Of a stretch of DNA of 64,000 bases, positions 61,512 to 63,863 are shown one piece after another; positions within the stretch are counted from its first letter, which is position 1, and every line of letters starts with the position of its first letter. The translations under genes were made by a program, and so were the position numbers. Origin of the DNA: Arthrobacter sp. zg-Y238 (GTDB lineage: Bacteria; Actinomycetota; Actinomycetes; Actinomycetales; Micrococcaceae). The notes beneath the pieces are model-generated. The model saw only the letters and a program-made list of their open reading frames with translations. It was not told the DNA's origin and did not search any database. The stretch lies in NCBI RefSeq assembly GCF_024385525.1, contig NZ_JANFLU010000010.1, positions 496,001 to 560,000 of the forward strand. Reading direction: 5' to 3'.

Positions 61512-62336
61512 CTACCTGCTCGGCCGCGACACATTCGCCCTGGCCAGCCCTGCCTCAGCTGCCGGCCCGTTGGCGGAGGCGGTTGCCTGCCACAACCGCG
61601 GCCACTGCGCGGCGGCTACATCCCTGGGCAGCGCCTGCACCGGAACTCCCGCAGCGGACAACGCGGTCCGTGCGGCCCGTGCCGACCCAAGATACCTGCC
61701 GAGGATCTCCCCCAGCCCTGCTCCGGGACCGCTGAAGATGCCGCGCACGAACCGCTCGTAGGCTGCCCGGTCCTGCGGTTCCAGCAGCGGAACCTTGCGA
61801 CGCCGGAGGCAGAGGACTCCGCCGTCCACTGTGGGGCGAGGGCGGAACCCGGCTGCTGGCACCCGGCCCCGAAGGTCGAATTCGAACCAGGGAGAGGTTT
61901 GGGCCGTCAGCAGGGTTCCGCCGCCGACCCCGGCCCGCTTGCGGGCGACCTCCCACTGGGTCAGCAGCACCGCTTGGGTCCAGGTACCCGTTGTCAGCAG
62001 ACGACGCAGGATCGGGGTAGTCAGGTGAAAGGGAATATTGCCCACAATCACAGGTCGGTCAAATGGAACGGCCAGGGCATCGGCCTGCCGCACCCGTGCT
62101 GCGGGCACACGCCGTTGCAGTCGTTGTACGCAGCCTGGATCCAAGTCAATGGCCAGCAGGTCACGGCCGAGGGCTGCGAGCGGACGGGTCAGGGCGCCGT
62201 CGCCGGCACCGAGTTCGAGGATGCTCCCGCCGCCCGAGGAACGGACCAGGCCAGTGACCAAACGGATAGTGGGTTGGTGGATCAGGAAATTCTGGCCGAG
62301 CTCCTCCCGGCCGCCATACTGGGTTCTCGCTCCCAC
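61512..62336 (-). CDS. erm: Erm-family 23S rRNA adenine methyltransferase
   Basis: Predicted to methylate A2058 of 23S rRNA, which confers resistance to macrolides, lincosamides and streptogramin B. The 274-residue protein starts near VGARTQYGGREELGQNFL, has SAM motif ILELGAGDGALT, the catalytic VGNIPFHLTTPILRR, and the Erm-typical QWEVARKRAGVGGGTLLTAQTSPWFEF and FRPRPTVDGGVL. The housekeeping KsgA/RsmA would read NLPYN instead. The GTG at 62336 follows TTGGAG 5-6 bases upstream; an in-frame start at 62366 is less favoured. A short upstream ORF and stem-loops (62341-62517) suggest inducible expression. Its terminal region is Ala/Arg-rich. Confidence 0.9.
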   Translation of the reverse strand: MGARTQYGGREELGQNFLIHQPTIRLVTGLVRSSGGGSILELGAGDGALTRPLAALGRDLLAIDLDPGCVQRLQRRVPAARVRQADALAVPFDRPVIVGNIPFHLTTPILRRLLTTGTWTQAVLLTQWEVARKRAGVGGGTLLTAQTSPWFEFDLRGRVPAAGFRPRPTVDGGVLCLRRRKVPLLEPQDRAAYERFVRGIFSGPGAGLGEILGRYLGSARAARTALSAAGVPVQALPRDVAAAQWPRLWQATASANGPAAEAGLARANVSRPSR

Positions 62337-62340
62337 GAGC

Positions 62341-62364
62341 GCTCCAATCGCCGCGAAATGGAGC
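62341..62364 (-). promoter_or_regulatory. Stem-loop burying the erm ribosome-binding site
   Basis: GCTCCA and TGGAGC pair over 6 bp around a 12-base loop. The TGGAG arm is the erm Shine-Dalgarno sequence, so the site is hidden when the hairpin forms. Confidence 0.6.
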
Positions 62365-62395
62365 ACCCTTCAGGCATACGACGCCTTCCGGGTGC
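62363..62395 (-). promoter_or_regulatory. Middle stem-loop of the erm leader
   Basis: GCACCC/GGGTGC outer stem with an inner AGGC/GCCT stem, separated by 3-base bulges. It shares two bases with the ribosome-binding-site hairpin, so the two structures are probably competing or tandem. Confidence 0.5.
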
Positions 62396-62442
62396 CTGGC
62401 ATCCGGAACGACGGCGCGCGGTACCGCGAGTGGAGGTGCCGC

Positions 62443-62458
62443 CCGCCGTCAGCGGCGG
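62443..62458 (-). promoter_or_regulatory. Stem-loop around the leader-ORF stop
   Basis: CCGCCG-CTGA-CGGCGG, a perfect 6-bp stem. The stop codon of the leader ORF is in the loop and its last Arg codons are in the arm. Confidence 0.55.
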
Positions 62459-62517
62459 CGGTCGCGCACGAAGAACCCGCAGCCGAAAGCGCGGGCAAAA
62501 GCTCTACAGGAAGTCAT
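62449..62517 (-). CDS. Possible erm leader peptide (22 codons)
   Basis: A short ORF starting ATG at 62517 and ending TGA at 62449-62451. The peptide begins MTSCRAFARAFGCGF and ends FVRDRRR, with consecutive arginines just before the stop. It has no Shine-Dalgarno, but TATCCT (62525-62530) lies 7 bases upstream, so a leaderless transcript would start at its ATG. Peptides that stall ribosomes with macrolides typically contain Arg/Lys-X-Arg/Lys, and this one has Arg-Asp-Arg and Arg-Arg-Arg. The ORF is very short and GC-rich; it could be chance. No similar leader is known to me. Confidence 0.5.
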   Translation of the reverse strand: MTSCRAFARAFGCGFFVRDRRR

Positions 62518-62524
62518 GGGAAGG

Positions 62525-62530
62525 AGGATA
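62525..62530 (-). promoter_or_regulatory. Possible -10 of the erm leader transcript
   Basis: TATCCT (TANNNT) seven bases before the leader ATG. No consensus -35 was seen, and no AT-rich WhiB7-type element either. Confidence 0.4.
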
Positions 62531-62584
62531 CGGCGACCGGCTCGCCGATTCCAGAGGGAGCAAGATGTACGGCGGATGGGTGAA

Positions 62585-62617
62585 CGGCAGCCGGCCCTGG
62601 GATAGGGCCGGCTGCCG
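62585..62617 (-). terminator. Stem-loop after the surface-protein gene
   Basis: CGGCAGCCGGCCCT / AGGGCCGGCTGCCG, a perfect 14-bp stem with a 5-base loop, 32 bp past the stop. No T run follows. Confidence 0.7.
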
Positions 62618-62649
62618 CACGTCTTCGGGGTCCTTGAGGGCGGCTACGC

Positions 62650-63348
62650 CTACGATTCCTCGGCTCCGCGGCGACGCGTGAAGTACACCCCGGCAGCACC
62701 AGCGACAAGAAGGCCTCCGGCTCCCAACAGTGCGAGCGAGGTGCCGCTTGCACCGGTGCCTGCCAGGTCAGGGCTCACACCATTGGACGGTCCTCCGGTC
62801 CTCATGCACGGCGGAGTGATGGACACTACCTGGACCATGGTCACCCCTGTATCAGTCTGCGTCGGCGTCGAGGTACCGGTCGGCGTCGGAGTGACTGTGG
62901 GGGTACCCGTCGGCGTCGAGGTGGGCGTACTAGTCGGAGTGACCGTCGGCGTCGACGTGGGCGTTGTTGACGGGGTGCCCGTCGGCGTCGACGTGGGTGT
63001 AGTTGTCGGGGTGCTCGTCGGCGTCGAGGTCGGCGTACTAGTCGGGGTACCCGTCGGGGTACCCGTCGGCGTCGACGTGGGTGTAGTTGTCGGGGTGCCC
63101 GTCGGCGTCGAGGTCGGCGTACTAGTCGGGGTACCCGTCGGCGTCGACGTGGGCGTAGGCGTGGGGGTCATGAGACAGGTGGGCGTAGGGTCCGAAACGG
63201 CTACGAGAACACCGGATTCCATTGGCGCGGCGGGAGCCTGTGCGGCAGCCGTCGGAGCGGTGGCCAGCGAGCCCACGAGGGCAAAAGCTGCCGCCAGGCT
63301 GCAGATTGAAGTAGTGGCAAGGGCATGTGGAAGGCGTTTGGTTTGCAT
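62650..63348 (-). CDS. Sortase-anchored Thr/Pro-repeat surface protein
   Basis: A 232-residue secreted protein. The signal peptide (ICSLAAAFALVGSLATAPTAAAQA) is followed by a region of about 105 residues built of TPT, STPTG and TPTST units. Then comes a short unique segment with a cysteine (SITPPCMRTGG), and a second cysteine precedes the repeats (PTPTCLM). The C-terminus is a sorting signal: LAGTG, a hydrophobic stretch (ALLGAGGLLVAGAAGVYF) and basic tail RRRGAEES. LAxTG is the class E sortase signal of actinobacteria. The repeats suit a glycosylated stalk. The start is uncertain: ATG at 63348 lacks a clear ribosome-binding site; a TTG at 63384 is the alternative. Function unknown. Confidence 0.85.
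   Translation of the reverse strand: MQTKRLPHALATTSICSLAAAFALVGSLATAPTAAAQAPAAPMESGVLVAVSDPTPTCLMTPTPTPTSTPTGTPTSTPTSTPTGTPTTTPTSTPTGTPTGTPTSTPTSTPTSTPTTTPTSTPTGTPSTTPTSTPTVTPTSTPTSTPTGTPTVTPTPTGTSTPTQTDTGVTMVQVVSITPPCMRTGGPSNGVSPDLAGTGASGTSLALLGAGGLLVAGAAGVYFTRRRGAEES
62866..63167 (-). repeat. Tandem repeats encoding Thr/Pro units
   Basis: Degenerate repeats of 6- to 18-bp subunits such as GTCGGCGTCGACGTGG and GTCGGGGTACCCGTCGG, coding for TPTST/TPTGT. Larger blocks of about 90 bp (for example near 62970-63060 and 63060-63140) are nearly identical, so the array has expanded by duplication. Confidence 0.85.
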
Positions 63349-63470
63349 GCGGACGAGGTTGACACCCTGCCTTGTTCTCCGCAAGCGTAAAAGCCACTTT
63401 CTTCACCCCAGCCTCAGTGTTCCCAGTAGTAACGCGAGCCGCAGTCATACCGGTTCGTGGATCCCGCCGG

Positions 63471-63863
63471 TCATTCGCCGGTGATCCACTGGACTATTTG
63501 TACGATCAAGCCGTTCGGATCCCGGTACTGCGCGAACCGTTCACCCCAGGGCTCCGTTTCCGGAGGGGTCACGACGTCCACACCGTCAGCAAGGAACTGT
63601 TGGTGGACTTCGTCGAGATTCTCGACAACGTGCACCAGCAACAATCCCTCCCGTGCCCGTCCAGCGACCTCCGGCGGCTGAAACGTCGAGAGGCCGGTAC
63701 GCAGGAAAATGAGGTTCGATCCCCCGCCCGGATGTCTGAGCGAAACAAAGCCGTCGTTTTCCATCTCCACGATGTAGCCAAGATGGCGGACGAGGAAGGC
63801 TGCGGAGGCTTCCGGCGCGGGAACGTTCAGGGAGACGGCGAAGGAGGTGACTTTCACGGGCAT
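63471..63863 (-). CDS. VOC-superfamily (glyoxalase/bleomycin-resistance-like) protein
   Basis: A 130-residue protein with the paired beta-alpha-beta-beta-beta fold of the VOC family. It has FAVSLNVPAPEASAAFLVRHLGYIVEMENDGFVSLRHP in the first half, and VENLDEVHQQFLADGVDVVTPPETEPWGERFAQYRDPNGLIVQIVQW in the second, with GERFAQYRDPNG the family's signature. Substrate unknown; members act on aldehydes, antibiotics or aromatic compounds. It lies 22 bp after the flavin monooxygenase on the same strand, so the two are probably one operon. The start is ATG at 63863. Confidence 0.88.
   Translation of the reverse strand: MPVKVTSFAVSLNVPAPEASAAFLVRHLGYIVEMENDGFVSLRHPGGGSNLIFLRTGLSTFQPPEVAGRAREGLLLVHVVENLDEVHQQFLADGVDVVTPPETEPWGERFAQYRDPNGLIVQIVQWITGE

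Follow-up and report, generated by a model that had tools for sequence, protein, structure and literature searches.

A putative drug-sensing, probably leaderless leader peptide in front of an erm gene of Arthrobacter and its counterparts in other actinobacteria

How an actinobacterial erm gene might sense the drug, and whether a short reading frame in front of it could act as the sensor, is the question raised by one locus of Arthrobacter sp. zg-Y238, a soil-type member of its genus. Drug-sensing leader peptides are known mostly from low-GC Gram-positive bacteria and have Shine-Dalgarno (SD) starts. The locus lies in a stretch of 64,000 nucleotides that was analysed as a whole (the window) and belongs to a genome of 3.55 Mb; it consists of an erm gene on the minus strand and a 22-codon open reading frame (ORF) that ends 112 nt before it. 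From the comparison of this arrangement with its relatives we consider it quite probable that the leader and the following RNA form a translational attenuator, which would switch erm on when a macrolide (or ketolide) occupies the ribosome. The features first needed are the following.

62525..62530, minus strand: -10 box TATCCT, without a -35 consensus; the TANNNT layout recurs across erm upstreams.
62449..62517, minus strand: leader ORF MTSCRAFARAFGCGFFVRDRRR, 22 codons, probably leaderless, its start placed by inference about at the transcription start.
62452..62466, minus strand: codons of R-D-R-R-R with the presumed stall motif R-x-R; a stall would be expected when Asp19 occupies the P site and Arg20 the A site, the register being taken by analogy with ErmDL.
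61512..62336, minus strand: erm, 23S rRNA adenine N6-methyltransferase gene with GTG start at 62336; profile NF000499.2 above its cut-off, NIPF motif in the product.

The NCBIfam profile Erm23S_rRNA_broad (NF000499) gave the window's Erm 218.8 bits against a cut-off of 212, which places it in that family, and none of the named Erm classes on the list (Erm46, Erm55, Erm38 and others) reached its own cut-off with it. By profile the gene is an Erm 23S rRNA methyltransferase, with A2058 methylation and MLS resistance as its predicted function. Relatives were searched in 29 genomes of the genus (nine with an erm match), in 395 genomes of the family (40 with a match) and in named genomes; 13 erm places of the family search gave no locus, and 80 of the 90 relatives from the named-genome search were kept. 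Extra members came from plasmids of Dietzia, Rhodococcus and Kocuria and from the search with an RNA model described below. Removal of 20 loci with identical 330-nt upstreams reduced the pooled 111 loci to 91 distinct upstreams.

The leader ATG follows TATCCT (62530-62525) after 7 nt and has no ribosome-binding site before it, and no sigma-70 promoter pair was found at the tool's threshold in 62200-62700. The same layout, i.e., TANNNT, 6-8 nt, a start codon and an ORF of 8-30 codons, was present in 87 of the 91 upstreams, which are distinct by exact sequence only and, with many near-copies of erm(X) among them, stand for fewer independent events; in 20 rounds of dinucleotide shuffling, the same upstreams showed it 4.8 times on average and never more than 9 times. 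When an R-x-R within the last six residues was added to the layout, 62 of the 91 upstreams had it, as compared to 0.1 in the shuffles. The distance between the -10 box and the upstream ORF (uORF) was 7 nt in 56 upstreams, 6 nt in 26 and 8 nt in five, in a count that permitted 5-9 nt and chose the candidate nearest 7 if there were several (at most 7 loci affected), and an SD-like sequence stood before the leader start in one of the 36 leaders looked at. Leaderless translation is supported by the 6-8 nt spacing in 87 of 91 upstreams together with the near absence of SD-like sequences, and the spacing also leads us to infer a transcription start at or next to the leader ATG; the leader is thus probably translated from a leaderless mRNA. 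A uORF candidate was lacking in four upstreams, two with a transposase end instead of a leader (L035, L042), one relic (L011) and one for which no explanation was found (L022).

The end of the peptide was compared in loci grouped by the identity of their Erm to that of the window, without selection by motif. Where Erm was at least 53% identical, the leader ended in R-x-R-[R/Q], one residue and the stop codon in 31 of 34 distinct upstreams, the remaining three (L035, L042, L011) being those without a uORF in this layout; at an identity of at least 50% such a leader was found in 33 of 41, with MGTLIFAR and four leaders with an internal AVARPRTG joining the exceptions, and below 50% the R-x-R-[RQ] type appeared in 4 of 50. 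Sorted by leader type, the 91 upstreams comprised 37 with R-x-R-[RQ] and one further residue, 40 with a short leader starting ML (a type that takes in the erm(X)-like loci), eight with ARP or MRPW, two others and four with none. Within the genus, seven of the nine erm matches had an R-x-R-R leader, one the different short leader MGTLIFAR, and one was a relic lacking a leader; L010, which has no R-x-R, and the exact duplicates L004 and L037 were set aside.

Exactly one residue followed the motif in 42 of 42 distinct peptides of the R-x-R type, a group selected by R-x-R near the end, in which neither the single trailing residue nor the nature of x had been imposed on the first 33 loci. The residue x was D in 30, I in four, L in three, N in two, and H, P and V in one each, and the first Arg codon, read in 36 leaders, was CGC in 28, CGT in four, CGG in two and AGG in two. 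Leaders of the R-x-R-R group were 12-23 residues long and had their first motif Arg at codons 8-19. Because the codons of the first Arg vary and x is of seven kinds, the peptide appears to be held, and not the RNA alone; the motif seems to be conserved as peptide, with a constant spacing to the stop codon, and a conserved R-x-R is in keeping with leaders of the +X+ (Arg-X-Arg) macrolide-arrest kind.

Leaders of other kinds share the layout. In the same genus, L010 (genome G011) carries the 8-residue leader MGTLIFAR and nevertheless has the GGTGCTCCAA/TTGGAGCGC hairpin over the erm SD in common with the others. Loci of one other genus (g13: L019, L020, L025-L027, L029, L031 and L033) show a third leader class, in which AVARPRTG, VARPW or MRPW lies in a frame starting 6-7 nt after TANNNT, and these stretches are possibly a separate stall motif.

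The RNA between leader and erm can be divided into six segments, as follows.

62453..62458, minus strand: segment 0 (CCGCCG), which pairs with segment 1 and has UGA in the loop; 99.3% of cells paired in 27 sequences, nearly invariant.
62439..62450, minus strand: segment 1 (GACGGCGGGCGG), which pairs with segment 0 or 2, according to the swap test and pair counts.
62403..62420, minus strand: segment 2 (CGCGCGCCGUC, then a = GUUCCGG); helix 1:1' 96.7% paired with 2 compensatory pairs, helix a:b with 4 compensatory pairs.
62379..62395, minus strand: segment 3 (b = GCACCCGGAA, then GGCGUCG), with segment 2 or 4 as partner, according to the swap test and pair counts.
62360..62371, minus strand: segment 4 (c = GAAGGGUGCUCC), with b or the SD segment as partner; for b:c 0 of 40000 permutations as good and 4 compensatory pairs.
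62339..62345, minus strand: segment 5 (GGAGCGC), the erm SD sequence; helix c:d 96.3% paired in 27 sequences, with little variation.

Between leader and erm, segment 1 consists of the stop codon followed by GACGGCG, segment 2 of CGCGCCGUC and a, and segment 3 of b and its 3' flank. In the alignment b alternates between a CUCGG and a CCCGG type, and a and c tend to change along with it. An Rfam search returned nothing relevant, Scr3920 and Vax2os1_2 being under their gathering scores.

The original prediction, made from the letters of the window, had described an erm preceded by a 22-codon ORF starting 7 bases after a TANNNT -10, a peptide end with Arg-X-Arg, a leader stop in the loop of a stem-loop and a third hairpin hiding the erm ribosome-binding site, and had named the lack of an Arg-rich leader in relatives with the same erm as an outcome that would speak against it. 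All these features lie where they had been placed: the leader UGA is in the loop of CCGCCG-CUGA-CGGCGG, and the hairpin 62364-62341 holds GGAG, 5 nt before GTG 62336. The layout and the peptide end recur in the relatives at the frequencies given above, the Arg-rich leader in seven of the nine genus matches among them, and the attenuator reading of this locus is supported. The three predicted hairpins make up one half, the off form, of a more extended series of alternative pairings.

Evidence for this chain comes from covariation. A swap test was run with one member per clade in 18 groups, with 10 draws of 4000 permutations each (40000 in total); L060, L108, L062 and L017, whose RNA is too different, were excluded from the alignment used for it and for the energy table, and L007, L009, L052, L059 and L112 from alignment A1. 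Permutations as good as the own pairing numbered 2 of 40000 for a:b, 0 for b:c, 146 for 1:1' and 55 for 2:3. Helices 0:1 (11280/40000) and c:d (5421/40000) were no better than permuted, and since both hardly vary, covariation neither supports nor refutes them. An extension of 2:3 by 1':b' was rejected as a covarying helix (3314/5000 and 28006/40000 permutations as good), and the same test gave no excess for six unpredicted pairings (a:c, 1':d, 1:b, 0:1', 1:d and 2:c).

In 27 sequences the on-structure (1:1' and b:c) had 94.8% of its cells paired and a covariation of 0.197 as compared to 0.127 in shuffles (0/500 as high), with 0.104 as the best value when slid; pairs changed on both sides numbered 6 as compared to 2.4 (1/500), and pair types were not above the shuffles (80/500). 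The off-structure (0:1, a:b and c:d) had 95.7% of cells paired and a covariation of 0.188 as compared to 0.098 (0/500; best slid 0.068), and its stricter counts were not above the shuffles, either for changes on both sides (4 vs. 3.8, 378/500) or for pair types (415/500); the tool warns that, taken by itself, the covariation score may surpass shuffles owing to relatedness. The compensatory pairs listed above for a:b, b:c and 1:1' were counted in these 27 sequences. Since b pairs with both a and c better than permuted, and c pairs with the SD segment, the alignment points to mutually exclusive helices, one of them sequestering the erm SD, though the two stricter off-structure counts fail. That two alternative helices share one segment, which appears to covary with both partners, would be difficult to account for if there were no switch. 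The lack of support for the off-structure in the stricter pair counts lowered our confidence in translational attenuation very slightly.

In the mechanism proposed here, the six consecutive segments would pair as a chain (0:1, 1:2, 2:3, 3:4, 4:5) with the erm SD in segment 5, the off state being 0:1, 2:3 and 4:5 and the on state 1:2 and 3:4 with segment 5 free. A drug-bound ribosome would halt at R-x-R when x, the fourth codon ahead of the stop, has reached the P site. The edge of a ribosome's footprint lies about 16 nt from the P-site codon, and the stalled ribosome would cover segment 0 and the stop codon and little of segment 1; the open segment 1 would take up segment 2, segment 3 would be freed to take 4, and the erm SD would be exposed. 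A drug-free ribosome reaching the stop, about 9 nt further, would hide segment 1 too, and 2:3 and 4:5 would be restored. Stalling, its register, the direction of the switch and induction by the drug are put forward by analogy with known leaders. On ErmDL, macrolides and ketolides are reported to arrest the ribosome at Arg-Leu-Arg while Leu occupies the P site and Arg the A site, and with erythromycin its R-x-R motif is reported not to be essential (PMC8298421). A more far-reaching version, to which we give somewhat less than an even chance, is that the six segments work as a ruler that reads the position at which a leaderless ribosome stops, the fixed spacing from R-x-R-R over one residue to the stop being that ruler, that the +X+ motif extends the response from macrolides to natural ketolides, and that leader, RNA and erm have spread as a cassette across several actinobacterial orders, plasmids included.

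Folding calculations agreed with this scheme in part. The folding energy of the window's RNA was not above chance (z -1.51, 15/200 shuffles as stable), and the single-sequence minimum free energy structure showed neither a switch nor excess stability. Unconstrained partition-function folding of 32 sequences with stepwise 5' removal (L008, in which no GGAG was found, was left out) left the SD in a helix whatever the edge (on average 0.05-0.10 unpaired) and so revealed no switch. By summed local hairpin energies, 0:1+2:3+4:5 had a mean of -43.6 kcal/mol and 1:2+3:4 of -48.5 kcal/mol; the off form was lower in 9 of 29 sequences, and with segment 0 removed 1:2+3:4 won in 29 of 29. A model combining helices gave the window's sequence a free SD at 0.017 without ribosome, at 0.997 and 0.618 when the stall edge was set 2 or 4 nt beyond the first nucleotide of the stop codon, and at 0.000 with segments 0 and 1 hidden. 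Among the 29 sequences, this model had 24 already on and five off without ribosome, 29 and 26 on at the two stall edges (three being off at the stricter one), and 25 off with segments 0 and 1 hidden, four remaining on.

The original prediction had proposed that the RNA could refold to expose the erm SD, and had named folding with and without the first hairpin as a check. In its favour, the alternative helices covary, the helix model switches for the window's sequence and with segment 0 hidden it is on in 29 of 29; against it, unconstrained folding shows no switch and is unchanged by hiding segment 0, and 24 of 29 sequences are on in the helix model before any ribosome is placed, so that hiding segment 0 brings a true off-to-on change in 5 of 29 only, the window's among them. 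We read the failure of partition-function folding to reproduce the switch as a limit of equilibrium folding for GC-rich RNA, but it does count as evidence against a simple thermodynamic switch.

The RNA element is linked to erm. At E up to 0.01, an RNA model (R1) matched in 19 of 395 genomes of the family and in 10 of 394 of the class, the window's genome being in both sets. Each of the 20 loci with E < 1e-8 immediately precedes erm, as placed by tblastn for L159 and L166-L172 and by the positions of the erm matches in the genus and family searches for the others, and all 20 have an R-x-R-[RQ] leader, a count to be read with the fact that R1 included the leader's last codons, by which RDRR-like DNA added to the score. 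At each of them a short ORF thus appears upstream of erm, presumably on one shared transcript. Seven of the 20 lie outside the first-searched family, the leaders of L166 and L168 being identical to ones already aligned, and matches beyond the loci used to build the model brought the new leader endings RHRRA, RPRRS and RLRRA. The weaker matches L161 and L162 also precede erm (endings MRLRRH and IRIRRH), and L163 is the MGTLIFAR locus. That the element controls other genes was considered and rejected, the matches with no erm in the fetched locus (L160, E 5.7e-7; L164, L165, L173 and L174, E 0.006-0.009) being taken as chance.

Other controls could be imagined for the same arrangement. The ribosome on the leader could decide whether RNA polymerase terminates between leader and erm; the GC-rich hairpins in that interval would suit such transcription attenuation, and leader-controlled attenuation of both kinds is known, ermK of Bacillus being of the transcriptional one. 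However, no hairpin followed by a T run was found in 62200-62700 by the tool's consensus (a terminator, if present, would probably be Rho-dependent or tail-less), and in the alignment the last hairpin contains the erm SD itself, which fits control of initiation; we regard termination as improbable. Regulation of the erm promoter, for instance by a WhiB7-type activator, with a leader that merely tunes mRNA stability or basal translation, appears quite improbable: the mycobacterial erm genes belong to the WhiB7 regulon and the lack of a -35 consensus is what an activated promoter might show, but an AT-rich block upstream of the -10 was not seen by eye in the promoter listing, and the fixed distance of R-x-R-R from the stop and the covariation of a, b and c would be left unexplained. 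Promoter-level and leader-level control could also coexist.

Scarcity of charged Arg-tRNA at the R-x-R-R codons, and not the drug, would stall the ribosome if the leader served an arginine or general translation-stress attenuator. Arg is indeed the most strictly held kind of residue in these leaders (the 42-peptide group having been selected by R-x-R), yet erm lies downstream at all 20 strong R1 matches, and other erm leaders in the same layout (MLISGTAFLRLRTNR, MGTLIFAR) share R-x-R or resemble drug-stalling leaders, with no Arg run. R-x-R is moreover documented as a macrolide/ketolide stall motif (PMC8298421), and an arginine sensor seems very improbable to us.

Taken as a drug-responsive translational attenuator, the locus most likely works like the ErmCL and ErmDL attenuators and differs from them by a probable leaderless start, a stop-anchored motif and a longer chain of segments. 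ErmCL has an IFVI motif and four RNA segments. The ermC/ErmCL system is described as a translational attenuator (PMC10219788), and has in common with the present locus a leader ORF, a drug-stalled ribosome (proposed for the present locus) and an RNA rearrangement that frees the erm SD; unlike it, the present locus probably has a leaderless start, and it has R-x-R-R near the end of a 12-23-residue peptide and a chain of six segments. With ErmDL (Arg-Leu-Arg, +X+; PMC8298421) it shares the R-x-R motif and the expected stall register (x in the P site, Arg in the A site), whereas ErmDL stalls at codon 7 and the first Arg here lies at codons 8-19, at a fixed stop distance and with x mostly Asp. In Corynebacterium, erm(X) has been proposed to have a leader peptide gene and to be subject to attenuation (PMC3350403). 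Its leader resembles the present one in the -10-to-start spacing of 6-8 nt and, in many erm(X) copies (MLISGTAFLRLRTNR), in R-x-R, others having MRPL; it differs as a 15-residue peptide starting MLI with another RNA sequence, and the Erm of the ML-leader loci, whose identity as erm(X) rests on similarity and plasmid labels, is 41-48% identical to the window's. Among the matches listed, no title in the open-licence PMC literature concerned an R-x-R-R actinobacterial erm leader or a leaderless erm leader, and the main text of PMC11264731, on erm leader variation, has no mention of Actinobacteria, Corynebacterium, Microbacterium, Arthrobacter, leaderless or RLR.

The neighborhood of erm varies among relatives. 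With an identity of 81%, Arthrobacter sp. zg-Y844 is the closest named relative among the matches listed, where very near records may be absent. All 29 genomes of the genus have the FHA-domain gene that lies downstream of erm; in the 1.5 kb upstream of that gene, L114, L115 and L122 have erm and the end of the Thr-Pro-repeat gene, and L117 and L118 only erm, without that end. In genome G021 erm lies at a greater distance from the FHA gene, and in G015 (L124) the repeat-protein gene adjoins it, no erm being detected between them. In the window, the gene upstream of erm (62650-63384, minus strand) encodes what looks by eye like a secreted-type protein, which contains long repeats of the kind PTSTPTGTPT and, towards its C-terminus, a hydrophobic stretch with RRR after it. 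The repeats leave a long frame open on the antisense strand (62678-63484, plus strand).

One identical 330-nt upstream precedes erm in six differently named records (L038-L041, L043 and L044, of which one has a further copy, L012), which suggests that the leader moves together with erm. The records bear the names Homoserinimonas, Microbacteriaceae, Kocuria, Intrasporangiaceae, Actinomycetota and Propioniciclava, and their identity may stem from recent transfer, or for some of them from contaminated metagenome bins. Three loci lack the leader region. In L011 (G017, a related species) erm is a shortened relic, in which a promoter-like stretch is followed by the gene body without the leader, the attenuator and the start of erm. 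In L035 (a Propionibacterium metagenome-assembled genome) and L042 (Brevibacterium), the position of the leader, immediately upstream of erm, is taken by sequence that by eye resembles transposase ends.

If the proposed reading is true, leaderless translation would be the route by which most of the actinobacterial erm genes sampled (87 of 91 distinct upstreams) sense the drug, with one group of them relying on a peptide motif at a set distance from the stop codon. Two points become testable in this way, namely whether drug-dependent stalling can be fed by leaderless initiation, and how an RNA switch is set by the position of the stall and not by the stall alone. The layout would also offer an annotation rule for likely inducible erm genes in soil and plasmid genomes: TANNNT, 6-8 nt, and a short ORF ending in R-x-R-R-x.
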